From positions 1-47,225 of the IMG/VR virus record IMGVR_UViG_3300014489_000002: DNA of 47,225 nt; one strand, 5' to 3'. Shown here piece after piece: positions 2,174 to 33,077 of the stretch. The notes under the pieces were generated by a model. The model saw only the letters and a program-made list of their open reading frames with translations. It was not told the DNA's origin and did not search any database. Positions within the stretch are counted from its first letter, which is position 1; every line of letters starts with the position of its first letter. The translations under genes were made by a program, and so were the position numbers. Source of the stretch: a virus.

Positions 2174-5100
2174 TCACCGATCTCTGGTCCGTACTTCGGC
2201 GATGCGCGGCAGTTTTTCATCAAAACTGTCTTGCCAGCCACGGAAAGCTTGAGTGACTGCCTGAAGTCTGTTGGAAAGCGCTTGGCCAGATGGTGTGTTT
2301 TCGTCCCGTAACAGTCGCATTTGATCCATGACCAAATTGAAAGCCTGGATTGACGTAATACTACGGTCACGAAACAAGGAGTCACGAATCAACCCCGGAG
2401 AAACGCTTGTCTGTAGAAGCGAAAGCAACGAGATCAAGGTTTCAACCGAGATACTGCGCGGTGCTCTGTGATCGTCGGCGATATATTCATATATGGCCAA
2501 CCTATTGAAGGAACAGATTGGACAAATCTGATCGCTCCCACCGATCGGCGACTTGGCCTCAAACCGCGCTTTATACGGTTTCGCGGCATCAGGTGACGGC
2601 TTCAACTCGGTCAGTTTGAGAGTGACGATCGGCCCGGCGAGTTCGGCTTCTGGCAGTCTGATTTGGTGGGAGGACACCAACGGGACCACGTCGTTGTGTT
2701 CCTCGTTAGTAGCCTCGGTCGATGCGGTCCGGGCGACCGTATGGGGCAACCCGATCAGAATAGAACATATCGGACACGCATAAACCAAGCTGGCGAGCAT
2801 TTGAGCTGAATGCAGTGCTTGGCGCGGCTCCTGAAAGCACGCTTCGCAAATCAATGCCGATCCCCGGGCCTGCCGGTTCCAGGGAGCAGCCCCGGCATGG
2901 CATCCAAACAGGTTCCCGCAAAAACCGTGAGATGCCAGCTCCGCATGGCTCAGATCTCGCACCGGCGGGAACTGTTGCATCGGATTGTCGCATCGAGGAC
3001 ATATGCTCTCGCCGGGATTTCCCTTCGAAGTCGGCGGAAACAGGCGATCGTCGCGGTCCGAACAGGTTGCGCAATATTGCAACAGGGTCAGACAACGCGG
3101 ACATTCTGTCGGTTCGGACAGACGTGCCGTGTCCAGATGCAACGGGTACCTACACTTGTCGCATTCATGAAAAGCTAGGTCCGGGTGACGGCCGCATTGG
3201 AAATGGCCCGGTTGTCCAGTAATAGATGGGCCCCGTCGCAGATGATGACGCCGGGGAGGGTCGTCACAACCCTCGGGGCAGGTCGGGAATATGAAGTGCC
3301 GTTTAGGATCTTCGCCTTCGCAGACGAAGGGATTGCGCCGGGGCTTCGCGATCAGCTTGTTGAAAGTTGGGTTTGATTCGCCTCCGACCCCGTCCCGATA
3401 AAATCGCATGAGGCCCGCAGGTATCGCGTTGGCCCGCTTCTCGGCCGGCGTCGCGCATCCTGGGCAGCGTGTATCGTCATCCCGGGGACGACGGGACATG
3501 TTGGCCTGACGGCGTTCGCCGCAGCTCTCTTCCACGACGCACTGGGGACAAAATTCTTCATCCATATGGATCGGCACGGCGGCGTGTGACGGCACGTCGC
3601 AATGCCAAAAGGACGTTTTGAGGGGACCGTGGCAGGCGGGGCAGGACGTCACGGACTCTGGAGGAGCCGATCCAAGGACTCGGCGCAGCCGTGTATCGAC
3701 GTCATCGGCGGTGCAATCAACATTGCCACAGCGGCTGCGGATCGGCCGTTCGCATTTTGGGCAGAACAGTCGTGAGTGACTTTCAATCCTGAGATCAGCG
3801 TCGCATCCCGGGTTGCCGCAAAGGACGGGATCGCCAGTATGCAGCGCGTGCACCAGCGACGGCAGCAGGTCGGCGGCGTCGCGATGCACGTGCAGCAACC
3901 GGCGCTCATCCCGAGGGACGTCCATGTAGCGGAGATGCAGGTCGCGTATCTGCGCGATGTCCACAGCGGGGTGATACAGGTCCTCGAGGAATACCAGCGG
4001 GATGTCCGATGCGCCCGCGTCGGCGGGATCCTTACCGAAGATTGTTCTGGTCCGTGATCGAAGCATTCGCCACGCCGCACGAACACCCGGGTCCTTTGCG
4101 TCGCCAGCCAGTTCTTTTGGCACCGCCAGCACGGGCTGTTTGATGGGTAAATTGCTTTCCACGTAACCCGGAGCGAACACGTTGCTGCGAATGGCTCTGA
4201 GCGTCTGATCGATGGGTTCCGTGCCGCCGATGCGGACCTGGATCACGGATGCCTCGGTGGGTAAGTCGTGCAACACGATATCGATGAAGGCGTCACAGAG
4301 CCGTTCCAGTGTTTCCGTCGCGTTCGCGACGCCGCCCAAGCGAACAAGCCGAACAAGCGCGGCGTGCCGCAGTGGAAACTGGAGCACGAACAGGTCCGCA
4401 ATTTCGACGTCGAGGGATGGTTTGTCGTCCACCGGCGGCTCTGCGATCCTTTCCAGGACATGGTCCCAATCTGATTGGGCGGCCCGCCCGGTGAGGGCCT
4501 TCATCTCCTTATGAAGGAGCGCAAGGGCGGGATGCGTTTCGCGCACGCGCACCTCCCTCGCCAACTGTCCTGGGCGACTGAGCCGGTACCTCAGGCAGTC
4601 GACGATGGCGCGGAAAACCGGGCCGGTGATAACGGCTGGGTCATCCGCCGTACTAAAGCGCGCTGCGACACGAGCCAACAGGGCACGCTCACGGTCGAGC
4701 AAGGACTGACGCAATTCGGCGAGGTGCGCCCGATTCTTATCGTCTCGCGCAACGAGTTCGCGTGCCTGGACCAGCAAGACCTCGCGAAGCCGTAGCGTAT
4801 CAGCTGCGGGCCATGTCGCCAGCAGGTCAAGAATCCTCTGACGGTCTTTTGTATACCGGGTCCGTAATATGCCCGCGAGCTCAACGAGCAGCTTCGAATA
4901 GTGTGGTTGCAGATCGGCAGCGCCGCCGAAGGCGGTGCCAAAGAGCTTTGGGAAAAATCCACTCGTGCCGCCATCGTAGATCGAGGCCAGTTTCGCGAGC
5001 GGGACGGGAATGTCGACAATGGGAGTATCGGTCACCGGTACTACCGGATCGCCGGGCAGCGGGAGTGATCGAAGTGTCCTGGCCATAGTCGGGCCGAGAA

Positions 5101-6829
5101 CCTCGCCGTCATCGACGCGTTGGCGCGCCCGGTCCAGTGCAGACGCATAGGCGGGTGCGAATACGACCGTGGGGGGGCCGGCGATGCGATCCAGAATGGC
5201 CGCAGCATGGTCGGTACGGTCCTGTTTGTCCGCCGTCAGGGCTCGCGCCACCAGTCCGCGTATGAGCCCCACAAGTGGCCCATCAGGTCCGGGGGTGGCG
5301 TTCACGCCGGGAGGCGCAGGTAGTTTACACTCAGCCGCCAGCTTTATCGGATGTTGAATGACATCGCTTCGCGTGATCCAGATGTCCGGGCCAATAGAGT
5401 TCGCGGCCTGCGTCAAAACCTCCACCGTCCGTGCGATGCCCGCCGGCTCGTACTGCTGCGCTCCCGAATGCACCTCGCTGAGCATCACGTGATCAGCGAA
5501 GAATTCGTTGCTTAGTACTCCGATGAGCCAGCCGGGCATCTTCGGCGCCGTCTGCTCACCGCCTTCGCTGGAGCAGGGAAGCTCAAAATCTATGCCGCTG
5601 CCGTCCAGGTTCGATTCGTCAATCGAATCTGCCAACATCCTTAGCATTCGCAACGCGACGAATCGCCTGATGTAATCTGCCGGAATGAAGGGGAAGGCAC
5701 GCGCGCCGATGGCACCGAACACATGGCGCCGGCGTTCCTGGCTCTCGCCGCGATGCGAGGGACTCGCCGCGTTCTGCGGCACGTACCGCGCGGCGTGCCG
5801 GATATCAAGACGCAGCCACGCCAAGAGATTTACTGCGGTGACATAACATGTGGCCGCAATTGATCGCTGCACAGCATTGTCAGCCCCATCAGCGCCCACG
5901 CCCACTGCAGCTTGCACGAATACGTCATCGAATACCGGCGATCCATTGGCCGTTGCCCGATATTCCCCTTTGCCAGGGTAATTCACCTGGTTCAAGCAAG
6001 TTCGGTCGGCCCAGTTGGTCCAGGCGGCCAGTTCCATGAGGGCGGCGTAAGCATTTGGCGCGATGCGCTCGGACGGCGTCGCGCCGCGATGCGTGTCCGG
6101 CAGCACGAAAAAGCCGTGTACAGGACAGCGCGGCAGGGTCATGCGGACAAGCAACGCCACATCCCAGAAAATCCCAGCGCCGGTGCCACCGGCCAACGAC
6201 GATACGATCACGACCCGAGGATCGTCTTTCGTCAGTTGCTGCAGCTCTCCTTCCAGTCTCGGAATGAAATCGGAAAGCGACCGGAACAGCGCGACGCGTC
6301 CAAGCGGACGGTATTGTTGCGCGCCTCCACCCGTGCTGGTTTGCTTGTCGCTGATACCAGCTCCGTCATCTGTCTCGCGCCACGGGTACCAAGCGTCGAT
6401 GGCCGGATGGCCTATCGTTTCGCCGTCAGGTAGCGAACCCCCGCCATGCCTTCGCTTGGTGTTGTCCTGTTCCAGGCGCTCGACCGTCGCGGCGATTTGG
6501 GCGGCCTCGAGCGGAAAGAAGCTGTCAAGCACAGGCAGAGGCCCTGGCCGAAGCAAGCGCCCCTGGCCGGCTGAACGATCAATCTCAAGGATGGTTGTCA
6601 GGTCGATGTCGCTGGCGGTGTTGGACTCGCGTTCGGTGTCCACGCCAAACAGTAGCAAGCGGTTTCCGTCGCGATCCTGGGTGAGGCCCGGGTCGGAACC
6701 GGCCTGGGCGATTGCCTCGATCAGCCGCAGCACGTTGACGCCGGTTCCACCTAGCCCGATGATAAGGGCAGGCGCGCGCTCGACCGGCTTAGTCGGCTGC
6801 TCTATCGTTCCGGATGCGGATCTTGCCAT
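2174..6829 (-). CDS. Tubulin/FtsZ-superfamily protein with zinc-ribbon array
   Basis: The protein has 1551 residues. The N-terminal region is a tubulin-like nucleotide-binding domain: ALIIGLGGTGVN at residues 21-32, matching the first glycine-rich loop, and SSLAGGTGAG at 210-219, matching the tubulin signature GGGTG(T/S)G. A long helical middle region follows (about 520-980). From about 1000 to 1440 comes an array of Cys pairs (FCPKC, SCPAC, FCPQC, RCPGC, CDKC, CPRC twice, CATC, CEAC, CPIC twice) plus several CxxxxC pairs, reading as several tandem zinc ribbons. A helical tail closes it. It is far longer than FtsZ (about 400). Large bacterial tubulin-like proteins (the Tubulin_2 type) are known, and one FtsZ-like family was linked to vWA proteins by Makarova and Koonin (2010, from memory). 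ATG 6829 lies 1 base after the upstream vWA stop, so the pair is coupled. GTPase and polymerisation activity are inferred. Confidence 0.85.
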   Translation of the reverse strand: MARSASGTIEQPTKPVERAPALIIGLGGTGVNVLRLIEAIAQAGSDPGLTQDRDGNRLLLFGVDTERESNTASDIDLTTILEIDRSAGQGRLLRPGPLPVLDSFFPLEAAQIAATVERLEQDNTKRRHGGGSLPDGETIGHPAIDAWYPWRETDDGAGISDKQTSTGGGAQQYRPLGRVALFRSLSDFIPRLEGELQQLTKDDPRVVIVSSLAGGTGAGIFWDVALLVRMTLPRCPVHGFFVLPDTHRGATPSERIAPNAYAALMELAAWTNWADRTCLNQVNYPGKGEYRATANGSPVFDDVFVQAAVGVGADGADNAVQRSIAATCYVTAVNLLAWLRLDIRHAARYVPQNAASPSHRGESQERRRHVFGAIGARAFPFIPADYIRRFVALRMLRMLADSIDESNLDGSGIDFELPCSSEGGEQTAPKMPGWLIGVLSNEFFADHVMLSEVHSGAQQYEPAGIARTVEVLTQAANSIGPDIWITRSDVIQHPIKLAAECKLPAPPGVNATPGPDGPLVGLIRGLVARALTADKQDRTDHAAAILDRIAGPPTVVFAPAYASALDRARQRVDDGEVLGPTMARTLRSLPLPGDPVVPVTDTPIVDIPVPLAKLASIYDGGTSGFFPKLFGTAFGGAADLQPHYSKLLVELAGILRTRYTKDRQRILDLLATWPAADTLRLREVLLVQARELVARDDKNRAHLAELRQSLLDRERALLARVAARFSTADDPAVITGPVFRAIVDCLRYRLSRPGQLAREVRVRETHPALALLHKEMKALTGRAAQSDWDHVLERIAEPPVDDKPSLDVEIADLFVLQFPLRHAALVRLVRLGGVANATETLERLCDAFIDIVLHDLPTEASVIQVRIGGTEPIDQTLRAIRSNVFAPGYVESNLPIKQPVLAVPKELAGDAKDPGVRAAWRMLRSRTRTIFGKDPADAGASDIPLVFLEDLYHPAVDIAQIRDLHLRYMDVPRDERRLLHVHRDAADLLPSLVHALHTGDPVLCGNPGCDADLRIESHSRLFCPKCERPIRSRCGNVDCTADDVDTRLRRVLGSAPPESVTSCPACHGPLKTSFWHCDVPSHAAVPIHMDEEFCPQCVVEESCGERRQANMSRRPRDDDTRCPGCATPAEKRANAIPAGLMRFYRDGVGGESNPTFNKLIAKPRRNPFVCEGEDPKRHFIFPTCPEGCDDPPRRHHLRRGPSITGQPGHFQCGRHPDLAFHECDKCRYPLHLDTARLSEPTECPRCLTLLQYCATCSDRDDRLFPPTSKGNPGESICPRCDNPMQQFPPVRDLSHAELASHGFCGNLFGCHAGAAPWNRQARGSALICEACFQEPRQALHSAQMLASLVYACPICSILIGLPHTVARTASTEATNEEHNDVVPLVSSHQIRLPEAELAGPIVTLKLTELKPSPDAAKPYKARFEAKSPIGGSDQICPICSFNRLAIYEYIADDHRAPRSISVETLISLLSLLQTSVSPGLIRDSLFRDRSITSIQAFNLVMDQMRLLRDENTPSGQALSNRLQAVTQAFRGWQDSFDEKLPRIAEVRTRDR

Positions 6830-6830
6830 G

Positions 6831-9800
6831 TCAGGCCCCCAAGACCATCATGACCTGACTGCTAAACGGTAACCACCGTTCCCAGGCGATCGAATGGCCA
6901 AACAGGGCCCACAGAAAGAGGATCAATACGAACCAGATCACCAGCAACGTGGCAACGGTCTGGCGGAACCATGTCCATCTCTGATCGAACGCTTCATGAT
7001 CAACGCTGACGCGATCATCAGGCGCACCTTCCGGCCGTATCGGTCCGAGCAGGAAGCGTCGAGCATGTACGGCACAGGCAAGCAGGAAAATGAAGGTCGA
7101 AATTTGCAGGTACTGTGCTGAAAGGTCTTGATCGCTGAAGTAATCGCTGATCGCGATGCCAACCTGGATCATGGCGATGATCAGAGTGAGAACGGTGAAC
7201 CACTCATTGATCAACGATAGCCATGCAGTGCGCGCCCGTGAACCGGCCAACCCCTGGGACCCGAGCCACTTGAGGCGTCGCTTTGCTCGTCTGTTGTCGT
7301 GGGATATCGTTCCCCAGATTGTTCCGCCATGCCGGACCAGCGTCAGAGCGGGAAAGAGTGAGACAATCGCCAAAACTCCGAAAAGGAAATTCAGCTTTAG
7401 AGGCAGGCGTTTGATATCGGCGATGTTCTGTCTGCTCTCGATCCAGAACGGCGTCTGCGGATCTGCGAACGGATGCTGAACGGACGCTTTGACGGTCAGT
7501 TGTGCGTCCTTGAGTCGTTCCAGGAAAAGATCATTGGCCACGGTCCTTGGCGCGGACACGATGACCAACCGGCGAAGCCTGCCAAGTGTCTCGGGCGGGG
7601 CTTTGTCGGGCTGTTTGTTTTGCAGCATGTGGATACCGCCACTTGTCACGATGTCCTCCGACCAAGCGAACATCGGCGGATCGTTTTGAGGCCAGAGGCG
7701 AATCGCGGGATCGAAATTCGCAGAGATCGCGAACTCCACCATGTGCGGATTGGCGAAAGGCAGAAGCTGCGGCCATAACGATTTGAGTTCCAAGGACATC
7801 TCGGCATTGATCAAAGTGGCGGAACCGCGCGCGCCCAACGCGCCGCGGGGGAGGTCTAGTTGTCCCCTTTCCGATTCGGCGCCGGTGAGGGCGACCAGCG
7901 CCAAGATACGCGATCCGGTCGCAGACGCCGGTTCCATCGTGTCGCTTTCGACGAATGGGATCGGTAGGCGGGCCTCGAATTCATCCGGTGTGGGATTGGC
8001 GCTTCCTTTAACCGGTACGTAATGAAAAAACCTGGCCGGCCTCGCTTCATTCGGATCGGTCCTCGTAGCACCTGGGTCAACCTGAATGTCCTTCAACCAG
8101 ACCTTACCACCCAAAGCTGGGCCCGACGACTCCGCAAGGGTAGCCAGCTGCGATATGGCGATTTCGGTGGGTGCACCTCGCAGGACTGTTGGCAGTAGCA
8201 ATATTCTGATCTGGTCTGGGGTCTTGCCCTGCTCAATACGCTGGATATCGACACGCGCGAGGGGCGGGACCTCAACCTTGACCGGTTCGGGCAACATAGG
8301 CGCGCCACCGGGGTCGAACAACTGCATCCAAAGGGTTGGGACAATCACCAATCTGTTCCAGTCCGCCGATACGAAATCGCGGCCGGGCGGTGTGATGGGG
8401 ATCTCCGTCTCGGGCGGGACCGGCACGCTATCTTGGTCGACCCGCGGCACGACGCCCTCCAAGAAGCCATCCTGGCTCTGTGTCTTACCCTCGATTAGTG
8501 GCGCGTCGTTTTGGTTAATGTACAGCCGGACGCGTGCTGGCGGCACAGCATTAGAATTCTTACCGGCCCGCCGGAACCGAATGACCGCAGTGGCGTCCTT
8601 GCCGATCGCCAGCACGGCTCTGTCTACCGCGATCCGGCTCGGCGGCAGGTCAAAGACACCGTGAGCCATATGCTCAGTGTCGTCGGGGTTGGGTTGATCG
8701 CGCAGAACCCACTGAATTCGCCGGGCGCCAATTTCGCGTGCCGTGATCAGGAACCGGTCGGGCAGCACGAACGTCAGTTCGCGCCGCCGAGTATTTGGGT
8801 CGCCCGCCTCAGAGGGCGGCAGTTCATATAATTCGGAGGTGCCAAGGCGTCTTAACTGGTTCACCGCCAGCAAGGCCGTATCCCGTACCGGCGACGTTCC
8901 GACCGTCCCTTCAGCGATCAGCATCAGGGAGCCAATCGGCCTGGGAGTGAGCAGCGTTTGCCGCACGGAGAGCTGCAACAAGTCCGCCTTCGATCCGGCC
9001 GGCGCCACATCGGCCGTTTCGCGCGGCATGAGCTTCGCTGCAAAGACCTCCAAAGGTTCGATCGGATCGAACAGCTGACGAGGCAGAATGGGATTGCCCA
9101 ACTCGGTTCTGTTGGGCGCGAGGAACAGCCGATTCGAAGCGCCCTGGTAATTGCCTAGCCAGAGTTGTTGAATTCGGATGTAGTCTATCGAGAGGCGTTT
9201 CTCGAATGGGGCCTGTCCGACATTGAGATCCGTTGGCTGATTATACACCGGCACGGCGCCCCCGCCCGATAGGCCAATCAAGATCTGCTCAATGTGCCGG
9301 GCGCGAGCTGGTCCGCTCGCGATCGCCCGAATGCCAAGTTCCAGGCCCCAACCACCGGCGTTCTGATCGTAGTTGATCGCCAGTCTTTCAACAGTGAATC
9401 CGGCTTCAGGCAGACGCGCGAGCCAATTGACTAGTTCTGGAACCTGTGTCGCTAGCGTCGCCGTACCGCCAGGCCCAATGGGCACGTCGACGACACCCCA
9501 ATTCTTGAGATCGCCCCCGAGGAGCTTGTCATAAATGTCCTTCAATGCTCCGGCGGGAGGCGGCACGCTGCTTGCCTGGGTCTGCCGCAGCAAGACAATG
9601 GCGGATTTCGGGAACCCTTCGCCAAAATGGGAGAGCCAGAACGCGTTGATCTGGGCCGTTTCCGTGCTCCCGGCGATTTTGGCGCGAAAGTTTTGTTGTG
9701 TGACCGATCGCATTTCCATGGCGTCGCGCGGATCTTTGAAATTGTCTACCATATCCGAAACGATAATGAACAGCCGGATGCGGGGCGCCGTGTCCGCCGG

Positions 9801-10232
9801 CGACTGATCGCGCAGCAGACCCGCGATATCCGTCAGCACCCGGTCATGAAAGGTGAGTGTCTTGTCAATGGGCTTTTCAACCCAGGTCTTGATATTGCCA
9901 GCGGCCTCGTTGATGACGGCGTCGCGTTGATCAGCCGCGCTGATGCGTGAATCCATCTTCTTGGATATGTCGCCCGAGAAGGTGACGATCCGGAGGGTGT
10001 CGCCGGCGACCAGAGGCAGGTTCCCCAGCATCGCCAACAGCGCTTCGCCAGCGGACCTTGGTACGTCGCTTGGTTGCTTCAGCTTACTGAAAAATCCGCT
10101 CTCCTGTAGATAGATGTGCAAATCCATCGGTGTCGTACGACTCTGTGCCATCACGATCCTGGGCAGCAACAACATCCCAGCCAGCAGCAGCGCCGGGACT
10201 ATGAAACCAATTGTGATCCGCTGGAATCGCAT
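6831..10232 (-). CDS. Membrane-anchored vWA-like protein, partner of the tubulin-like protein
   Basis: The protein has 1133 residues with the ATG at 10232, chosen because GAGGGAAG lies about 6 bases upstream; a GTG four codons earlier is less likely. A signal peptide or anchor is visible at residues 1-30 (FIVPALLLAGMLLLP, then VMAQ). Next comes a vWA-like fold: MDLHIYLQ strand, TLRIVTFSG, and RLFIIVSDMVDNF at about 165-180. The MIDAS DxSxS motif is not present, so metal binding is doubtful. A very long, presumably periplasmic, beta-rich region follows. Four hydrophobic segments end the protein, at about 945-965, 1008-1029, 1040-1056 and 1090-1112. It therefore likely spans the inner membrane, and the cytosolic parts could meet the tubulin-like partner. 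It is driven by the sigma-54 promoter just upstream. The vWA call rests on strand pattern and is moderate. Confidence 0.7.
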   Translation of the reverse strand: MRFQRITIGFIVPALLLAGMLLLPRIVMAQSRTTPMDLHIYLQESGFFSKLKQPSDVPRSAGEALLAMLGNLPLVAGDTLRIVTFSGDISKKMDSRISAADQRDAVINEAAGNIKTWVEKPIDKTLTFHDRVLTDIAGLLRDQSPADTAPRIRLFIIVSDMVDNFKDPRDAMEMRSVTQQNFRAKIAGSTETAQINAFWLSHFGEGFPKSAIVLLRQTQASSVPPPAGALKDIYDKLLGGDLKNWGVVDVPIGPGGTATLATQVPELVNWLARLPEAGFTVERLAINYDQNAGGWGLELGIRAIASGPARARHIEQILIGLSGGGAVPVYNQPTDLNVGQAPFEKRLSIDYIRIQQLWLGNYQGASNRLFLAPNRTELGNPILPRQLFDPIEPLEVFAAKLMPRETADVAPAGSKADLLQLSVRQTLLTPRPIGSLMLIAEGTVGTSPVRDTALLAVNQLRRLGTSELYELPPSEAGDPNTRRRELTFVLPDRFLITAREIGARRIQWVLRDQPNPDDTEHMAHGVFDLPPSRIAVDRAVLAIGKDATAVIRFRRAGKNSNAVPPARVRLYINQNDAPLIEGKTQSQDGFLEGVVPRVDQDSVPVPPETEIPITPPGRDFVSADWNRLVIVPTLWMQLFDPGGAPMLPEPVKVEVPPLARVDIQRIEQGKTPDQIRILLLPTVLRGAPTEIAISQLATLAESSGPALGGKVWLKDIQVDPGATRTDPNEARPARFFHYVPVKGSANPTPDEFEARLPIPFVESDTMEPASATGSRILALVALTGAESERGQLDLPRGALGARGSATLINAEMSLELKSLWPQLLPFANPHMVEFAISANFDPAIRLWPQNDPPMFAWSEDIVTSGGIHMLQNKQPDKAPPETLGRLRRLVIVSAPRTVANDLFLERLKDAQLTVKASVQHPFADPQTPFWIESRQNIADIKRLPLKLNFLFGVLAIVSLFPALTLVRHGGTIWGTISHDNRRAKRRLKWLGSQGLAGSRARTAWLSLINEWFTVLTLIIAMIQVGIAISDYFSDQDLSAQYLQISTFIFLLACAVHARRFLLGPIRPEGAPDDRVSVDHEAFDQRWTWFRQTVATLLVIWFVLILFLWALFGHSIAWERWLPFSSQVMMVLGA

Positions 10233-10259
10233 CACTTCCCTCACATTCGGAACACTTGG

Positions 10260-10275
10260 TGCAAACCGAATGCCA
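10260..10275 (-). promoter_or_regulatory. Sigma-54 (-24/-12) promoter of the vWA-tubulin operon
   Basis: Read on the minus strand the site is TGGCATTCGGTTTGCA. It has the invariant GG (-25/-24) and GC (-13/-12) exactly 10 bases apart, and it matches the consensus TGGCAY-N5-TTGCA. It predicts a start near 10249, leaving a leader of about 17 bases that carries the GAGGG ribosome site in front of ATG 10232. A sigma-54 activator gene lies immediately upstream in the same orientation. Confidence 0.85.
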
Positions 10276-10323
10276 AAAGCAGGAAGTCACCGAATCAACG
10301 GATTATGGCTCGTTCTCATAACG

Positions 10324-10352
10324 GGATTGTGTCCGTTCAGCGGACATGATCC
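10324..10352. promoter_or_regulatory. Upstream activator dyad (candidate enhancer for the sigma-54 activator)
   Basis: This is a 29-bp imperfect palindrome. The inner arms TGTCCG and CGGACA are separated by TTCAG, and the outer arms GGAT and ATCC are separated from them by two unpaired bases on each side. Ten of twelve arm positions pair. The centre, near 10338, is about 89 bp upstream of the predicted sigma-54 start, which is a usual enhancer distance. The neighbouring activator ends in a Fis-type HTH expected to bind such a dyad as a dimer. Confidence 0.7.
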
Positions 10353-10417
10353 ATGATGTTACAGAAACGCCGACGCCGCCTGCCGTCAGGGCGCCGTGCC
10401 TGGTTCGGCCCCTTACT

Positions 10418-11407
10418 TCAGGGGCGCCAGTTCCGCCTTTCGATCATGCGGTAAAGCGTGGGACGCGAGCAGTGCAAGATCCGGGCTGCCTTCGCTATGT
10501 TGAAGCCTGTCAGGCGCAGTGCGGCGAGTCCCCGTTCTTCCGCCGCAGCCTCGACGGTCATCGCGTTGCTACCGCTGGTCAAAGTAAGCTCCGGGCAAAC
10601 CTCTTCAATGGCCTCAAGGATGTCGTCAATCCCGAGTACGGCATGCCGTGGGGAGACCCGAAGCGCAGCGTTTGCGACCACGGCACGCAGTTGGCGAATG
10701 TTCTCCGGCCAATCGAAACTGATCAGCAGATCGAGTGCATCCTGGCGAAACAAAGCCTGCCCGCCCTCCACTGCCTCTAATTGCAAAAAGTATGCCGCCA
10801 GGCTGCGGATCGCATCAGGGGAACGCCGCAACGGCGTCAGGCGTAGACGCCATTGACGCAGCCTGGCACGCAAGTCCGGCAAGAACCGTCCAGAGGCCGC
10901 GAGCTTGTCGAGGTCCTTGTTCGACGTCGCCACGATCCGAACATCGGCGGCACGCTCCTGAACCTCGCCTAGCGGCGTGAACCGGCCATCGTCGAGGAAC
11001 CGGAGTAGCGCGGCCTGTATTTCCAAGGACAGATAGTCCACATCGTCGAGGATCAGCGTTCCGCCACTTGCCTGTTCCAGCATTCCGACACGAGCGGCAA
11101 GCGCGCCGGTGAACGCTCCTCGAACATGGCCAAAAAGCGCCGAGGGACCCGTTCCGGTGTCGATCTCGCCACATCCGCGTTTTACGAGCGGGCCAGTCGC
11201 GCGCGGCGAATGCTGATGGATCCATCTGGCCAGCACTGTCTTGCCTGTTCCGGTCTCTCCCTCGATGAGGACCGGGGCCGGTTTGGCCGCGATCAGACCC
11301 GCGCGCCGCAATATCTCGGCGCCAGCGACTAGATTCAGGAATGGCGGATCGCTGTCACGCTCATTCGTGAAAGGTACTGGGTGGTTGTCAGCGATTGTGA
11401 GGCCCAT
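10418..11407 (-). CDS. Sigma-54-dependent transcriptional activator lacking an N-terminal sensor domain
   Basis: The protein has 329 residues. ATG 11407 is preceded by AAGGAA at 8-base spacing; a longer TTG-start reading adds 20 residues. It has a complete AAA+ core: Walker A GETGTGKT (residues 50-57), the sigma-54 contact loop GAFTGA (97-102), Walker [14 protein letters not shown], the R-rich [11 protein letters not shown] and the [11 protein letters not shown] sensor-II motif. A C-terminal Fis-type HTH ends it ([23 protein letters not shown]). Only about 30 residues precede the core, so there is no receiver, GAF or PAS domain. PspF and HrpS have this build and are controlled by a partner protein. 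Here the target is almost certainly the adjacent vWA-tubulin promoter. How it is held off or switched on is not visible; a cassette protein is an obvious candidate. Confidence 0.9.
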
Positions 11408-11471
11408 GATGGGCGTTCCTTGGCCGGCGGGAGAGAACATTATTGCAGCAAAACTATCGCACGTCAATGGT

Positions 11472-16324: not shown

Positions 16325-16979
16325 AGGGTTTTCCACGACGCTGGACGCGACGCGCCGGCAGCGGCGCAACGATCCGGCCGTGCGAATGGCGAAGGCGCAG
16401 TTGCGCCGCAACGTGCTGACTGCCATCGGCCCAGACGAGGCCTGCGTGTTCGACGCCTTCGCCGGCAAGGGCGAGATGTGGGGGCTGGTGTGGCGCGACG
16501 CCGGCGGATACGTCGGCTGCGACCGGGATTGGTTCAGTGACGAACGCATGGCGTACGTCGCGGACAATCGTCGCGTGATGCGGCACATCGACCTTTCACT
16601 ATTTAACATTTTCGACCTCGATAGTTTCGGCGGCCCGTGGGAACAGGCCATCATCATGGCCGCGCGCCGTCAGGTGAAACCGGGCGAGCGGATCGGATTG
16701 GTGCTGACGGACGGCTCCAACCTCGATCTTTCCCTGGGCGGAATGACCGCGCCGCTGCGGGAAATCGCCGGGTTCACCAGCATCCCGGCGGGCGCGGCGT
16801 GCTCGCACGCGGAAATCATCGAGCGTGCCATCAATGGCGTGTGCCGCAGGATGCGGGTGAGACCGGTGCAACGGTGGGAGGCGAAGGGTGCCAGCGGCGC
16901 CAAGGTTCGCCACATCGCGCTGGTGTTGGAAGGGGCGGAGGGCGGCCTCCAGGACGCGAGAGGTCTAGGTCTTGCTTGA
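16305..16979 (+). CDS. Class I SAM-methyltransferase-like phage protein
   Basis: The protein has 224 residues. The N-terminus is Arg-rich (TRRQRRNDPAVRMAKAQLRR). A SAM-binding first motif reads VFDAFAGKGEMW with a following acidic strand (VGCDRDWF). HIDLSLFNIFDLDSFGGPW and RIGLVLTDGSNL may supply the later Rossmann strands. There is no DPPY/NPPY motif, so base methylation is not proven. It overlaps the ParB-like gene, a pairing seen in many phages. The last residues (after EGAEGG) run into the 3' end of the opposite-strand kinase-like gene, and the stop lies within that gene. The C-terminus may therefore be altered by the same junction that cut the kinase. Confidence 0.6.
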   Translation: MARRVSKGFSTTLDATRRQRRNDPAVRMAKAQLRRNVLTAIGPDEACVFDAFAGKGEMWGLVWRDAGGYVGCDRDWFSDERMAYVADNRRVMRHIDLSLFNIFDLDSFGGPWEQAIIMAARRQVKPGERIGLVLTDGSNLDLSLGGMTAPLREIAGFTSIPAGAACSHAEIIERAINGVCRRMRVRPVQRWEAKGASGAKVRHIALVLEGAEGGLQDARGLGLA

Positions 16980-17825
16980 TGTGCTGTTCGAGATAAGAGA
17001 CAACATACTCAGAACAGCAGGCTCCGAGACAAGTTCGATGGAGGTTCTGCCATATGAGGTCCGCGACAGAAGCTCCATCAACGGAGTAACATGCGGTTCG
17101 CCATCAAACTGACGCGAATAATCAACCAATTCATCACTCAACCACTTCTCTTTTGGCTCCCTTTCAGCGATTTCTCCAAGCTTCTCTAGTAAAATTCTTA
17201 CTGCCTCACGATGCTCCTCGGTTCTGTAATAAGTGCGGAAGATCATCGTGTCAGCAGGTTGCAGCTCACGAGCCACCCGATGCAGATGTTCAGCTATATC
17301 GTCGCAGCGAGACAACAGGCCCTTGGCGATTTCAGCGAAACGAATATCGGACAGCACATGTCTCGATGCACTCGATCCAGCAAGCGAGAGAAGCCAGCCT
17401 CCCGCGTTCGAAATGGTGTTTCGAAGGTCGTGGAACGCACGCCTAGTGCTCAAGTATGGCCCGGTGTCCTTGTCGCACAGTAATTCCAGGAAAGAAGAAA
17501 TTCGGCCGTCATCGTTCCAGTTCACTCGACTGCGATTCAAGAAAACGGGTAGGAGCACTCGCTCTGCTTCGTCATCTATCGTTAGAGATGCGAGTTTAAG
17601 CAATTCAGAAAGTAACCTGTCGGCTTGAATAAATAACCGACCGTTCTTCTTTCCAGGACCCGCGGACACAATGTCTTTAATGGTCGACGTGAAGCGCTCA
17701 TTGAGTTCCAGTCTCCCGTGAAGGCCCCTAATGCTGATCCTCCGGCGGAAGTTAGCAAGTTGAATCACCAATAAACCACCGAAACGTAATCTGATGGGTG
17801 ATGGAATCATTAAATCTGATCTCAC
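16965..17825 (-). CDS. Histidine-kinase-like protein, truncated at the N-box
   Basis: The protein has 286 residues. The GTG start overlaps the TIR-receiver stop (GTGA). A helical N-terminal half precedes an H-box-like AFHDLRNTISNAGGWLL with His132. A long helical segment follows, then SRQFDG and finally ELVSEPAVLSMLSLISNSTSSKT, read in parts. The end matches the N-box of HATPase domains (D/E-P-x2-L-x2-hLxNLhxNA), but the protein stops there, so the G-boxes are missing. The break coincides with the end of the phage methyltransferase-like gene on the other strand. The AT-richer base use marks it as acquired. It may be inactive as a kinase, or act as a phosphotransfer partner for the receiver next door. 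Confidence 0.6.
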   Translation of the reverse strand: MRSDLMIPSPIRLRFGGLLVIQLANFRRRISIRGLHGRLELNERFTSTIKDIVSAGPGKKNGRLFIQADRLLSELLKLASLTIDDEAERVLLPVFLNRSRVNWNDDGRISSFLELLCDKDTGPYLSTRRAFHDLRNTISNAGGWLLSLAGSSASRHVLSDIRFAEIAKGLLSRCDDIAEHLHRVARELQPADTMIFRTYYRTEEHREAVRILLEKLGEIAEREPKEKWLSDELVDYSRQFDGEPHVTPLMELLSRTSYGRTSIELVSEPAVLSMLSLISNSTSSKT

Positions 17826-18724
17826 TTCAGTAAGATTTGATCTACCTGCCGCATGAACGCAGCGTACTGCTTTCGTGTTACAGGCTTTGAAAGGATAAGA
17901 TCAGATGAAACTCCGATCTTTTTGAGTTCTGCCGCCGCGATGTTCATCGTTTTGATATCGTGACCTGTAACTACGATAATAGGTGTACTATTGCGGATCG
18001 CAGTCTCCGCGACAAGCACCCCGCTCAATTCGGAATAGCTACGGAATACAAGGTCAGTTATACACAGTCGTACATTGTTTTGGTCGCTGAGAATTTCACA
18101 CGCAGCCTTTGGGTCGCTAATTAGTTGCACGTGATAGCGCGCGGCAAACCGCTCCTCAATCTGAATATACAGGCCACTCGAGGTCGTTAGATCATCGTCG
18201 ACCAAAAGTACTCGCAATCTTTCGTCAACTCTTCCCCAGCCCCTTATTATCAAATCCACCTGTTTTTGAAGGACAGAGGGAGACTCCGGAACCAGGTCGA
18301 GCAAAATGCCAATATCATGCACGAGCTGGTACAATTCTGCTGAATTATCAGCATGGAGCGCGTTAAAACCAGTCAGCGGGCCGGCAAGCATTGACGATTT
18401 CGAACCATGCATCAAAACCGGAATGAGGGGTTTGCCGGCGCCCCAGCGAGCGCCAAGCTCGAACAGGACATAGGCAGAACTGACTGAGTTGTGCGATATC
18501 AGGCCAATCAACACAACTGCGCCAGAAATCTCTCTACGTATTTGCTCGTCGGTGTACGCCCCTCCTGGGAGCCGGGAACCGTCGACGCTAGTACAACGAA
18601 TGTCCCTGGAGGGAAGATTGAACGCAGCCTTGAATAGATCGATCAGTTGTCCTGCGATTTGCGCATCATGTGAACTGTGACTAATGAAGATCTTCGGCGG
18701 AAGACAGGTTTGGCGGTCGATCAT
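17822..18724 (-). CDS. TIR domain-response regulator receiver fusion
   Basis: The protein has 300 residues; ATG 18724 is preferred over a TTG further up. Residues 10-140 form a TIR domain: PKIFISHSSHDAQIA, then GGAYTDEQIRREI, VVLIGLISHNSVSSAYVLFE with Glu89 at the place of the catalytic Glu, and LGARWGAGKPLIPVL. Residues 169-300 are a full receiver domain: RVLLVDDD (acidic pocket 176-178), phosphoacceptor Asp224 in CITDLVF, Thr253 in VVTGHD and Lys280 in LSKP. TIR domains of this kind can be NADases in bacterial immunity; control by receiver phosphorylation is an inference from the fusion. It is coupled to the kinase-like gene downstream. AT-richer than the flanking phage genes, it is likely cargo. 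Confidence 0.85.
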   Translation of the reverse strand: MIDRQTCLPPKIFISHSSHDAQIAGQLIDLFKAAFNLPSRDIRCTSVDGSRLPGGAYTDEQIRREISGAVVLIGLISHNSVSSAYVLFELGARWGAGKPLIPVLMHGSKSSMLAGPLTGFNALHADNSAELYQLVHDIGILLDLVPESPSVLQKQVDLIIRGWGRVDERLRVLLVDDDLTTSSGLYIQIEERFAARYHVQLISDPKAACEILSDQNNVRLCITDLVFRSYSELSGVLVAETAIRNSTPIIVVTGHDIKTMNIAAAELKKIGVSSDLILSKPVTRKQYAAFMRQVDQILLK

Positions 18725-19078
18725 AGTTTTCACCGTCCCACGGTGGGCTCTCTCTCGCTGCCAGGGCAGGTTCGACGAGAATGCCCAACCCAATCTTTAA
18801 CTACATGATCCACAAGCCAGTTGCGGCGATGGCCGGAGCAATCCCCTGGTGTTTGCTCCGATGGGATAATACGACATCCGGGTGGCACCCGCTATACGTG
18901 AAATATTCCGTCGTCGGGCGTTGGTGGGGTCTCCCGAATGTTCGGTTCCCACCTGGAGCCGCATGTCAGAAGAAGTCCGATCCTTAGCGGAATTCGATGG
19001 TCGGCGGTCGAAGCGCCAGGACGCCCGCGCAGGTAGGCCGTCTAGCCCCCCTGGCAGCAGGCCCCGCTCGCCGGAGCG
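18725..19078. other. Intergenic region upstream of the TIR-receiver gene
   Basis: These 354 bases hold no gene I can support. The part next to the TIR gene must carry its promoter (minus strand), but I see no confident -35/-10 pair. The half toward 19078 is GC-rich again, like the phage, so the composition change lies inside this stretch, near 18900-18970. No inverted repeats of IS type and no attachment-site duplication were noticed. Confidence 0.45.
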
Positions 19079-19987
19079 TCAGGCGAGCACGGAAGTCCGC
19101 AAGCGCTTAGTGTGACGATGAAATGCCGCCGGCCACTGGCGCCACGTGCGGCCGTCCAGCGTGGCACCGCCTTGCTCACCGGTGACGGTCGGCCTCCCCG
19201 CCTTGTTCAATCCGATCTGGGCAAGCTGCTCGCCGGCTGCGATCGCGTTGCGGATGCGATCGAGGCGCGTCAATCCGCTCCGCTCCTGGTAAAGTGGATT
19301 GTTGGCCCACTGGCCGAACTGCTTGAACCACACCGCGGCCCTGGCCTCGACCCCGAGGTTGACGGCGGTCCTGATCCACTCGACCGGGCAATCTCGCGCG
19401 CCCGATCCCGACTCCCCTCCCACCAGGATCCAATCCATGCCGTGAAACGTCATGGACAGCGGATTGCCGATCAGCGGCTCGACCGAGAGGAAGGCGCAGA
19501 AGTCTCCCAGGTCATCTTTCATGCGCCGCAACGTGTCGATGCGCTGCCGAACCTTTGGCCCCTCGACGGTCAGCCCGAGCCAGATGTTGGGCGGCACGCC
19601 ACGCCCCCTGTACCGATCGGTTATGTAACGTCGCATTGTGGTCTGGCGCTTGCTCAGCACCTGGAACGCGGCCCCGGTATTCGCCTCCATCGCGTCGAAC
19701 ACGAGATCGCGGAAGGAGTCCGGGATTTGCTCGTGCATCAGGTCCGACATGGAGTTGACGAACACCAGCCGCGGCACCAGGCCATCGGGCGTCTTGATGG
19801 GCCGGAACTGCGCCCCCTGCGCGATCCGCTCCGGGTGAAGCTGTACGTCCTCGAATGCGTGGTCCATGAATCGATTGACGATGACCTTGGCGTAACAAAA
19901 GGCGCAACCATCCGAGATGGCGGTGCAACCGACCGTCGGGTTCCAGGTCGAATTGGTCCATGAAATATCGGTCTTAAGTACTGTCAT
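19079..19987 (-). CDS. Phage Gp37/Gp68 family protein (DUF5131)
   Basis: The protein has 302 residues. ATG 19987 has AAGGGAAAA upstream; a longer in-frame start is not needed. The N-terminus ISWTNSTWNPTVGCTAIS is diagnostic, followed by a radical-SAM-like Cys trio in DGCAFCYAKV. Further family hallmarks are GLVPRLVFVNSMSDLMHE, NIWLGLTVE and DWILVGGESGSGARDC. These proteins are widespread in phages and prophages; their biochemical role is not established, though the Cys cluster suggests an Fe-S enzyme. The C-terminal end is Arg/Thr-rich. It lies in the minus-strand early region. Confidence 0.85.
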   Translation of the reverse strand: MTVLKTDISWTNSTWNPTVGCTAISDGCAFCYAKVIVNRFMDHAFEDVQLHPERIAQGAQFRPIKTPDGLVPRLVFVNSMSDLMHEQIPDSFRDLVFDAMEANTGAAFQVLSKRQTTMRRYITDRYRGRGVPPNIWLGLTVEGPKVRQRIDTLRRMKDDLGDFCAFLSVEPLIGNPLSMTFHGMDWILVGGESGSGARDCPVEWIRTAVNLGVEARAAVWFKQFGQWANNPLYQERSGLTRLDRIRNAIAAGEQLAQIGLNKAGRPTVTGEQGGATLDGRTWRQWPAAFHRHTKRLRTSVLA

Positions 19988-20083
19988 TGAAATTTTCCCT
20001 TTGGGTTGGATTACGGCGATCAGCCAAATGTACAACGGCACGCCACCAACCTTGCTGGTTAACATGGTGCGATCCCTTCATGA

Positions 20084-31274: not shown

Positions 31275-33077
31275 CTAAACACCACGGATGGTGAGGTGTT
31301 TCAGATCAGAAAGCGGTTTCACGTCTCTGACTCGGGTGCCTTTAAGATCGAGGGATTGAAGGTTGGTCAGTTTGGCCAACGGCGTCACGTTTTCAATTGG
31401 TGTTCCTCTGAGATCGAGTGATCGGAGATTTGTCAGCCCCCCGAGCGGTGCGAGATCAGTTACTCGCGTGTTCACAAGGTCAACCGATTCCAGGCTGGTC
31501 AGGCCGGCGAGCGGCGCGAGGTCTCTGACCCGAGTACCCCGGAGGTTGAGGATTTGCAGGTTAGTCAAGCCAGTGAGCAGCGTCGTTGCCTCGAAATTTT
31601 TCCTCCCGGATAAATTTAGCTGCCGTACGAACGGTCGCCACGATATTGGCGGAGCCTCCCCGTTGAGAATGAGGCGTGCGGCCTCCAGATCAACATCGAT
31701 ATCCTTTGAAACGCCTGAACCTCCATGCCGACTGGGAATCGCCGTATCAGGTTCGTCGAGAGGAAGTTGTGGACTGCTTCCCGCTGGGGGATTAATCTTG
31801 AGTTGCTCAATTAAAGTTGCGAATGCGAATCTGATATCACTTGGCAAATCAATTATCAGTTTCTCAATCGGCATCGTTGTCTCTGAGATAAAATCACCAA
31901 CACGTTTTACAAATACCGACTTGGTCGAAAAATCAGATGCGGCTGCGGCTACATAAAATGCAGCCACAATTCTTACCCCTGCGAGCAGGAGATTTCTTGT
32001 CGATCCGACGACTCGGGTTTTGGCCTTTTGTCCTTGAAATTCCCCGCGCTCGGCTGCGCCCATCAACACGGCCACCCGCACGGCATCTTCCGCGGAGATC
32101 AAATCTATAGACTTCGCGGCGGCCAACACTTCTGACGAAGGTGCGAGTAACTCACTCTTTGTGAGAAATGCTCCTGCGGCATCATCAAGAGCGGTCACCG
32201 TCGGAAATCCACGCAGCCACGGTGCGGCGTTTCGGATGAGATGACTGAGGGATCGACGCACATCTGGATCGAGAGGACTCGCGGAAGCGTCTTTCTCCAG
32301 CTGGAGGCGATTGTCTTGTTCAATAAAGGAGCCAAGCGCGAGCGCAGCTTCGTAGATAAAGCCAAGTTTGAGGTGCAGACTCGCCACGTCACAATCTACG
32401 TTTTCGACAAATGCTTTGGCAGCAGCCGAAATGCCCTGCCAACCTGTCGAATTGTCCAGCCGAATGGCGAGGGGCAGGAACTGCTTGGCATTTCTTACAA
32501 CAGCAGCATGCAGCTGTTGCATGAGCGGCTCCGCCGCCGCCTCCGCGTCCGAAAGATCGCCGGCAGGGTCCATCGCAATCCTTTCGGCGCGTTCGACCCA
32601 TCGAGCTCCAACGGGCTCCTGACTGACCCCCGAAAGCCGCCTGATGTGGGTAACCGTCCTGGCCTTCGCTTCGATCTTTCTCCGTTCCTCGGCAGCGTGC
32701 CGGCGTTGTTCCTCCTCCGCTTGTCGGCGTGCTTCCGCTGCTGCTTCCAGGATGGAGGTCTTCTCCTGTTCGCGGCGTTCGGCGTCACGCTTCCTGGAGT
32801 CGCGCTGCTGCTCAACAAGTGCCCGTTGCCGCGCCGCCAGTTCAGCCGCGGTCATGGCCCGAGTTGGTGGGGCCGCCGGTTCTGGTGACGAGGTTGTCGT
32901 TCCCGCCGGGGCGCCAGTGCGCTTCCTGCGTACCTCCACCTGGACGACCTTGGACCGCCCGAGACCGAAATTTTGCCGCACGCTCCCAGCCTCGACGCTG
33001 CGGCTGAGTGCTAGTCGTCCAGCCGGCCGCTGACTTACTCGGCCCTTATCGTTTGCTGTGTCATCGCCGCCACTCAT
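31275..33077 (-). CDS. Chimera: IF-2 N-terminal region fused to a helical domain and leucine-rich repeats
   Basis: The protein has 600 residues and is reverse to the late operon. Residues 1-150 resemble the N-terminus of alphaproteobacterial initiation factor IF-2: GRLALSRSVEAGSVRQNFG, GRSKVVQVEVRRKR, a linker, LAARQRALVEQQRDSRKRD and a Glu/Arg/Ala helix. No GTPase domain follows. Residues ~150-470 are helical and unknown to me (FLPLAIRLDNSTGW, RFAFATLIEQLK). Residues 480-600 hold five leucine-rich repeats of 22-23 residues, each like LTNLQSLDLKGTRVRDVKPL. This is clearly not a virion gene. It may be a regulatory or effector moron that competes with IF-2 contacts; that is only inference. Confidence 0.75.
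   Translation of the reverse strand: MSGGDDTANDKGRVSQRPAGRLALSRSVEAGSVRQNFGLGRSKVVQVEVRRKRTGAPAGTTTSSPEPAAPPTRAMTAAELAARQRALVEQQRDSRKRDAERREQEKTSILEAAAEARRQAEEEQRRHAAEERRKIEAKARTVTHIRRLSGVSQEPVGARWVERAERIAMDPAGDLSDAEAAAEPLMQQLHAAVVRNAKQFLPLAIRLDNSTGWQGISAAAKAFVENVDCDVASLHLKLGFIYEAALALGSFIEQDNRLQLEKDASASPLDPDVRRSLSHLIRNAAPWLRGFPTVTALDDAAGAFLTKSELLAPSSEVLAAAKSIDLISAEDAVRVAVLMGAAERGEFQGQKAKTRVVGSTRNLLLAGVRIVAAFYVAAAASDFSTKSVFVKRVGDFISETTMPIEKLIIDLPSDIRFAFATLIEQLKINPPAGSSPQLPLDEPDTAIPSRHGGSGVSKDIDVDLEAARLILNGEAPPISWRPFVRQLNLSGRKNFEATTLLTGLTNLQILNLRGTRVRDLAPLAGLTSLESVDLVNTRVTDLAPLGGLTNLRSLDLRGTPIENVTPLAKLTNLQSLDLKGTRVRDVKPLSDLKHLTIRGV

Follow-up and report, generated by a model that had tools for sequence, protein, structure and literature searches.

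A phage-carried vWA and FtsZ-like gene pair with its own predicted sigma-54 switch

The DNA analysed in this work, hereafter the window, corresponds to the whole of the IMG/VR virus record IMGVR_UViG_3300014489_000002 (47,225 bases, window positions 1 to 47,225). Its minus strand carries three genes (window 2174-11467) that encode, in the order of transcription, a sigma-54 activator (bEBP), a vWA membrane protein and a tubulin-superfamily protein, termed TUB. The features of this cassette are listed in Table 1. Genes for a replication initiator, a DUF6362 protein and an HNH nuclease lie to the left of the cassette, and genes for HTH regulators, a ParB-like protein, the terminase, the portal, the major head protein and the tail sheath lie to its right. 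The cassette genes have a GC3 of 0.66-0.69 vs 0.80-0.88 for the phage genes and have thus probably been acquired; the overall GC content of the cassette is also below that of its flanks. An original prediction, made from the DNA letters alone, had placed three reverse-strand genes between phage genes and considered them phage cargo; the placement was confirmed, and the phage genes on both sides as well as the deviating GC3 agree with a cargo status.

Table 1. Position of the cassette features in the window and the evidence for each
Feature	Position	Strand	Evidence
FtsZl1-type (Tubulin_2) protein TUB, 1551 aa	2174..6829	-	PF13809 E=1.9e-29; AF2 and Foldseek PDB; invariant Cys pairs
Exported vWA membrane protein, 1137 aa	6831..10244	-	Orthologues in 9 genomes; hydropathy; Foldseek vWA/I-domain matches from low-confidence model
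PspF-like sigma-54 activator (bEBP)	10418..11467	-	PF00158 1.5e-47 and HTH_8; alignment of 8 proteins
Predicted sigma-54 promoter TGGCATTCGGTTTGCA	10260..10275	-	Score p=0.0025 over the 163 bases upstream; site in the same place at 7 other loci with an activator
Perfect 6-bp dyad TGTCCG-N5-CGGACA, likely bound by the activator (UAS)	10330..10346	.	Unique match; half-sites in relatives

Other genes were noted elsewhere in the window, some of them in low-GC DNA. A second cargo (16965-18793, minus strand, about 0.49 GC near 17-18.5 kb) encodes a protein with a TIR and a receiver domain (17822-18793; the TIR domain is SpbK/ThsB-like), the gene of which overlaps one for a 286-aa protein that belongs to no known family; such a fusion of TIR and REC looks unusual. 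A 600-aa leucine-rich-repeat protein (31275-33077, minus strand), located in a GC dip amid structural genes, is possibly a third cargo gene product, and a DUF5131 protein (19079-20065, minus strand) matches the PADLOC candidate models PDC-M41B/PDC-M30B.

TUB matches the Pfam family Tubulin_2 (PF13809) with 103.5 bits at a cut-off of 27. Its N-terminal tubulin/FtsZ GTPase-like domain (about residues 20-400) possesses the glycine loops T1 (GLGGTG at 25-30) and T4 (GGTGAG at 214-219), which are invariant or nearly so among 10 relatives. This domain is followed by a helical middle region and by a Cys-rich zinc-ribbon region toward the C terminus (about 1000-1360), where C1223/C1226, C1243/C1246, C1253/C1256, C1277/C1280, C1328/C1331 and C1352/C1355 are among the Cys pairs that do not vary across 8 aligned proteins. 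For residues 1-433, the AF2 model had a pTM of 0.68, with pLDDT values of 80-94 across much of the nucleotide core, and its best 50 Foldseek matches in the PDB were solely FtsZ, CetZ, TubZ and tubulin (best E 9.9e-5). A sequence search of the PDB with the TUB profile gave no match at E up to 0.1, though TubZ and PhuZ structures are present in the PDB. Most FtsZl1 proteins have an extended coiled coil and then a helical C-terminal domain, an arrangement that is not a strict criterion and from which TUB departs in its Cys-rich C-terminal third. By its sequence, TUB is classed here as a variant architecture of the FtsZl1 family.

One base separates the stop codon of the vWA gene from the ATG of TUB. 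No Pfam family matches the phage vWA protein, the PF00092 match of an orthologue is weak (E=0.0011, below the curated cut-off), and a PDB sequence search with the vWA profile gave no usable match; PADLOC has no model for either this protein or TUB. The full-length model is of low confidence (mean pLDDT 41) and was used for the fold call only, and a structure search with it still retrieves vWA/I-domain folds. The protein comprises the vWA fold (about residues 38-290) and a beta-rich middle, and its hydropathy shows a segment like a signal peptide (10-28) as well as several TM segments toward the C terminus; this signal-like N terminus and C-terminal TM anatomy are common to nearly all relatives. 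The MIDAS (DxSxS/T metal site) has been lost from the phage protein, which reads QESGF vs DNSKT or DRSKT in the relatives, and is kept in the host copies. In Skermanella, the vWA gene (L006 5788-9927, plus strand) is split into two frames of 996 and 378 aa, which may reflect a frameshift, a sequencing error or a genuine split.

The activator gene starts with TTG at 11467 or, as is likely, with ATG at 11407. The encoded protein has no N-terminal sensor domain and shows the domain set of a sigma-54 bEBP, namely the AAA+ domain (PF00158), a Fis-type HTH (HTH_8), an exact GAFTGA, Walker A (GETGTGKT) and Walker B (LILDDVD). Walker B contains DD instead of DE in every intact bEBP; PspF with the matching replacement E108D still activates on duplex DNA, like the wild type (PMC4132715). 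The L1 loop is GAFTGA in the phage protein and GAYTNA, GAFTSA, DAYTGA, DAYTSA, DAYTSS or GGFTGA in the hosts, with the threonine kept throughout; given the deviant loops of several host bEBPs (DAYTSS, DAYTSA), their sigma-54 contact is uncertain. The best NCBIfam/PADLOC match of the AAA+ part is RtcR, far below the curated cut-off and, unlike the cassette activator, a CARF-AAA-HTH bEBP with a different target operon. The individual motifs named in the original prediction (GAFTGA, Walker A/B, GLGGTG and GGTGAG) are all present, and its description of a signal-peptide, multi-TM vWA-like protein followed 1 base downstream by a giant tubulin-superfamily protein holds, the vWA fold being called from the low-confidence model.

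Full-length relatives of TUB are encoded on a replicon of A. brasilense and by Skermanella aerolata and A. griseum, and a profile search identified a large TUB in 7 of 82 Azospirillaceae genomes and in two single genomes, G331 sampled from the class and G627 from the phylum. In all nine relatives the vWA gene is located directly upstream of TUB. An intact bEBP gene is adjacent in seven, of which six are Azospirillaceae and one is G627, a distant proteobacterium; it is found upstream in Skermanella, A. griseum, G038, G055, G035 and G627, and downstream in A. brasilense. The trio thus occurs in eight further genomes, including one (G019) with a decayed bEBP gene (L129 15016-15894, minus strand) that retains a Sigma54_activ_2 match (E 5.8e-7) and encodes neither a P-loop nor an L1/GAFTGA loop; G331 has no bEBP gene. 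Tblastn detected a bEBP at 0 of about 90 other Tubulin_2 loci, some of them on short contigs. A search of other genomes for the three-gene order had been set beforehand as the test of the prediction, as had a check of a tubulin model for its nucleotide pocket: the trios do co-occur elsewhere, and the model has the FtsZ/tubulin fold with both glycine-rich nucleotide loops. The trio, which the phage shares with chromosomes of soil bacteria, is almost certainly a conserved unit and no chance grouping.

The surroundings of the chromosomal loci vary. Housekeeping genes adjoin the A. brasilense locus (gyrB side). In G038 (L127 188-8977, minus strand), TUB is followed on the same strand by a second vWA gene and genes for SrfB (PF07520) and Virul_Fac (PF10139), which form an Srf-type operon beside FtsZl1. 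Azospirillum sp. TSA2s (L003 9944-20690) has a short Tubulin_2 gene that adjoins caspase-family and OmpA genes.

In trees, the phage TUB and vWA proteins are on long branches and the phage copy is not firmly placed; the closest TUB among the searched chromosomes shares about 30% identity at best. Scans of IMG/VR with single sequences and alignments of TUB, vWA and bEBP, based on short peptide patterns that distant relatives can escape, gave no second viral copy, and deposited phages yielded one distant Tubulin_2 match only, on an unverified 9.8-kb record. Carriage of the cassette by a phage looks exceptional. Relatives of the major head protein of the window (about 50% identity) are present in 3 of 82 Azospirillaceae genomes (G052, G054 and G055), with several copies and fragments per genome, and such phages are thus common in these genomes. 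One of the three, G055, also has a chromosomal trio. The host of the phage is likely in or near the Azospirillaceae. The contigs with the related prophages in these three genomes are short and the early region is missing from them; terminase-related phages have little in common with the window beyond the terminase itself, and a search with DUF6362 as an anchor for related phages gave no match.

The predicted promoter TGGCATTCGGTTTGCA begins 31 bases ahead of the start codon of the vWA gene. It is the sole match in the window to TGGCACN5TTGCW with at most one mismatch; 1.8 such matches are expected by chance over 47 kb, and its weight therefore rests on position and conservation. A -24/-12 site, beginning 31 to 89 bases before the vWA start codon, was found in 8 of 8 activator-bearing loci, i.e., the window and the seven relatives with an intact bEBP, so that the original prediction of an own sigma-54 promoter extends to the relatives. 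Single-locus p-values against first-order shuffles are between 0.0005 and 0.0285 and combine to 1.9e-10 (Fisher), or to 6.7e-10 if the near relative of A. brasilense is left out; at the weakest locus, that of G627, 8% of random windows taken from that locus reach an equal score. The same scan before the TUB and bEBP genes tested gave no comparable site. About 55 bases from the -24 element of the window is the perfect dyad, which is the one match to TGTYCRN5YGRACA in 47 kb (0.09 expected). TGTYC/GRACA half-sites, arranged as dyads, precede the -24 element by about 55 to 90 bases in six relatives as well as in the window, and G627 has a different perfect 15-bp palindrome, ACTGTTTATGTTGAA-N8-TTCAACATAAACAGT, between its bEBP and vWA genes (L169, upstream of 8819), perhaps an operator of another type that goes with a diverged activator.

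G019 and G331, with a decayed and an absent bEBP gene, respectively, have no -24/-12 site (p 0.53 and 0.62), and the regions upstream of their vWA genes contain neither TGTYC/GRACA dyads nor the palindrome of the G627 type. In G019, where the promoter and dyad are gone, the vWA and TUB genes remain intact, and the locus appears as a natural loss of the switch. The dyad motif and the promoter weights were chosen after some of the sequences had been inspected, and the p-values are therefore optimistic; more weight is carried by the loss of the sites together with the activator. The gene rpoN is present in each of the nine relatives' genomes. Together with the predicted cognate promoter and upstream dyad, these data make it highly probable that the cassette is under sigma-54 control.

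A link to signal-transducing NTPases emerges at the chromosomal loci. A gene for an nSTAND5 NTPase is divergent from the bEBP gene in Skermanella, A. griseum, G038 and G055, i.e., at four of the seven intact chromosomal loci (E 2e-26 to 2e-12), and such a neighbour is missing at the A. brasilense, G035, G627 and phage loci. In G001, G002 and G038, the bEBP-adjacent gene is the only nSTAND5 copy above the cut-off, and G055 has three copies, one of them adjacent; with several thousand genes per genome, such adjacency is very unlikely to arise by chance. The two other G055 nSTAND5 genes have no second bEBP operon, and the N termini of their products appear, by eye, SIR2-type STAND-like. Two of the four adjacent nSTAND5 proteins have an N-terminal calcineurin-like phosphoesterase domain and match PADLOC candidate defence models. 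Anti-phage activity is known for STAND NTPases that have exchangeable effector domains (PMC9122126). The nSTAND5 gene beside the bEBP resembles such defence proteins (Avs-like, SIR2-STAND) but is paired with a transcription activator, and it is absent from the phage. Furthermore, a Meiothermus plasmid (L004 334-16410, plus strand) has vWA and Tubulin_2 genes within a defence locus with matches to HmaB, HmaC, PDC-S01 and BrxL.

Operons of FtsZl1 and vWA genes are known, with a predicted role in membrane remodelling (Makarova and Koonin 2010, PMC2875224), a link that the original prediction had named correctly. The cassette shares with them the Tubulin_2 protein with T1/T4 loops, the neighbouring vWA gene and the signal peptide and TM segments of the vWA partner, but differs in its dedicated sigma-54 activator and promoter, large zinc-ribbon tail and phage carriage, in the STAND neighbour of chromosomal loci and in the absence of a protein kinase, GTPase or OmpA gene. 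Tubulin and vWA genes have also been reported from predicted conflict systems under GTPase control (Kaur et al. 2020, PMC7159879). The cassette resembles these GAP1-N2 systems in its tubulin and TM-vWA genes; however, its three genes include no recognised DO-GTPase, GAP1 or FNIII gene, and its control is transcriptional, via sigma-54. With the phage shock system (PspF/Psp), it shares a sensor-less bEBP with a Fis-type HTH, an adjacent sigma-54 promoter with dyad sites and a membrane-linked product, whereas its target is vWA-FtsZl1, Walker B has DD rather than DE, and no pspA/B/C-type Pfam match was found among the cassette proteins.

The cassette may serve defence as an inducible operon for a membrane-linked, FtsZ-like effector, with a sigma-54 switch of its own, a reading to which we give an even chance. 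The bEBP would be freed by a signal that probably reaches it through the STAND NTPase or through a protein that keeps it inactive, as PspA does PspF, and would then act on host RpoN-RNA polymerase to turn on the silent vWA-FtsZl1 operon. The vWA protein would be exported, with its C-terminal TM helices as an anchor; the FtsZl1 protein would bind GTP in the cytoplasm, assemble at this anchor, presumably as a filament, and reshape or break the inner membrane during attack, in a defence that is possibly abortive. Membrane anchoring is probable, and GTP-dependent assembly somewhat favoured. The STAND gene would have been left behind when the phage took up the unit as lysogenic cargo, so that the signal for the phage copy must come from elsewhere, and in a lysogen this copy could provide superinfection defence or envelope protection. 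A conflict or defence role as such, judged from the genes and their neighbours, is equally balanced. The STAND gene is missing from the phage and from three of the seven intact chromosomal loci, the phage MIDAS is lost and some loci are beside housekeeping genes, all of which counts against a defence operon. More speculative is a four-gene, NLR-like immune circuit, in which the STAND NTPase senses invasion, releases the bEBP and so arms a membrane-anchored tubulin effector transcriptionally, instead of or besides direct killing, and from which a temperate phage took the effector arm and rewired the input; we regard this circuit as possible but doubtful.

The main rival is a Psp-like envelope-stress repair, in which membrane damage frees the sensor-less bEBP, the vWA-FtsZl1 pair seals or remodels the membrane and the phage keeps its lysogens alive. 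The likeness of the bEBP to PspF and the sigma-54 control typical of Psp agree with this, as do the exported vWA partner with its TM segments, the predicted membrane-remodelling and OmpA-linked context of FtsZl1 (PMC2875224) and the housekeeping genes beside some loci. Repair accounts less well for the nSTAND5 genes divergent from the bEBP gene, two of which encode effector-like phosphoesterase domains, for a patchy distribution (7/82 family genomes) like that of defence systems and for the absence of a PspA/B/C-like gene from the cassette, and is considered a tentative alternative. The preference for defence over repair is based on circumstantial evidence, namely STAND genes as neighbours, the patchy distribution, the defence locus around the Meiothermus pair and the TIR protein of the second cargo.

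A fold search of viral proteins with the TUB model retrieved PhuZ and phage tubulins, as would suit a protein that, like TubZ/PhuZ, serves phage DNA segregation or virion positioning. By sequence family, however, TUB belongs to Tubulin_2 and not to TubZ/PhuZ, it bears a giant zinc-ribbon tail, its relatives are chromosomal with the same partners, the composition of the cassette is foreign to the phage and terminase-related phages have no TUB. A phage-cytoskeleton role, for which we see hardly any likelihood, was rejected. The phage copy might instead be a decaying pick-up of a host system that is itself real, in line with the lost MIDAS, the absent STAND gene, the long branches and the lack of a second viral copy in the scans; yet three long open frames of about 3000 codons in total are intact, and the bEBP motifs, promoter and perfect dyad are kept, making a non-functional passenger improbable. 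That host DNA was joined to a phage contig during assembly is suggested by the lower GC content of the cassette and by its occurrence in a single record, but phage genes flank it on both sides, the gene set is close to no searched chromosome and the second low-GC cargo shows that this phage carries cargo; such an artefact is very improbable.

In the literature searched, from which most subscription papers and preprints were absent, no sigma-54-controlled, STAND-linked or phage-borne version of vWA-FtsZl1 was found, and these three features are new here to that extent. The same literature contained no paper testing FtsZl1 function. The defined switch of bEBP, dyad and sigma-54 promoter lets the vWA-FtsZl1 pair be turned on at will, making its effect on membranes and phages observable. 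Should the STAND gene indeed feed this switch, the result would be a transcriptional immune circuit that combines an NLR-like sensor with a tubulin relative, and the carriage of the cassette by a phage suggests a payoff in phage-phage competition.
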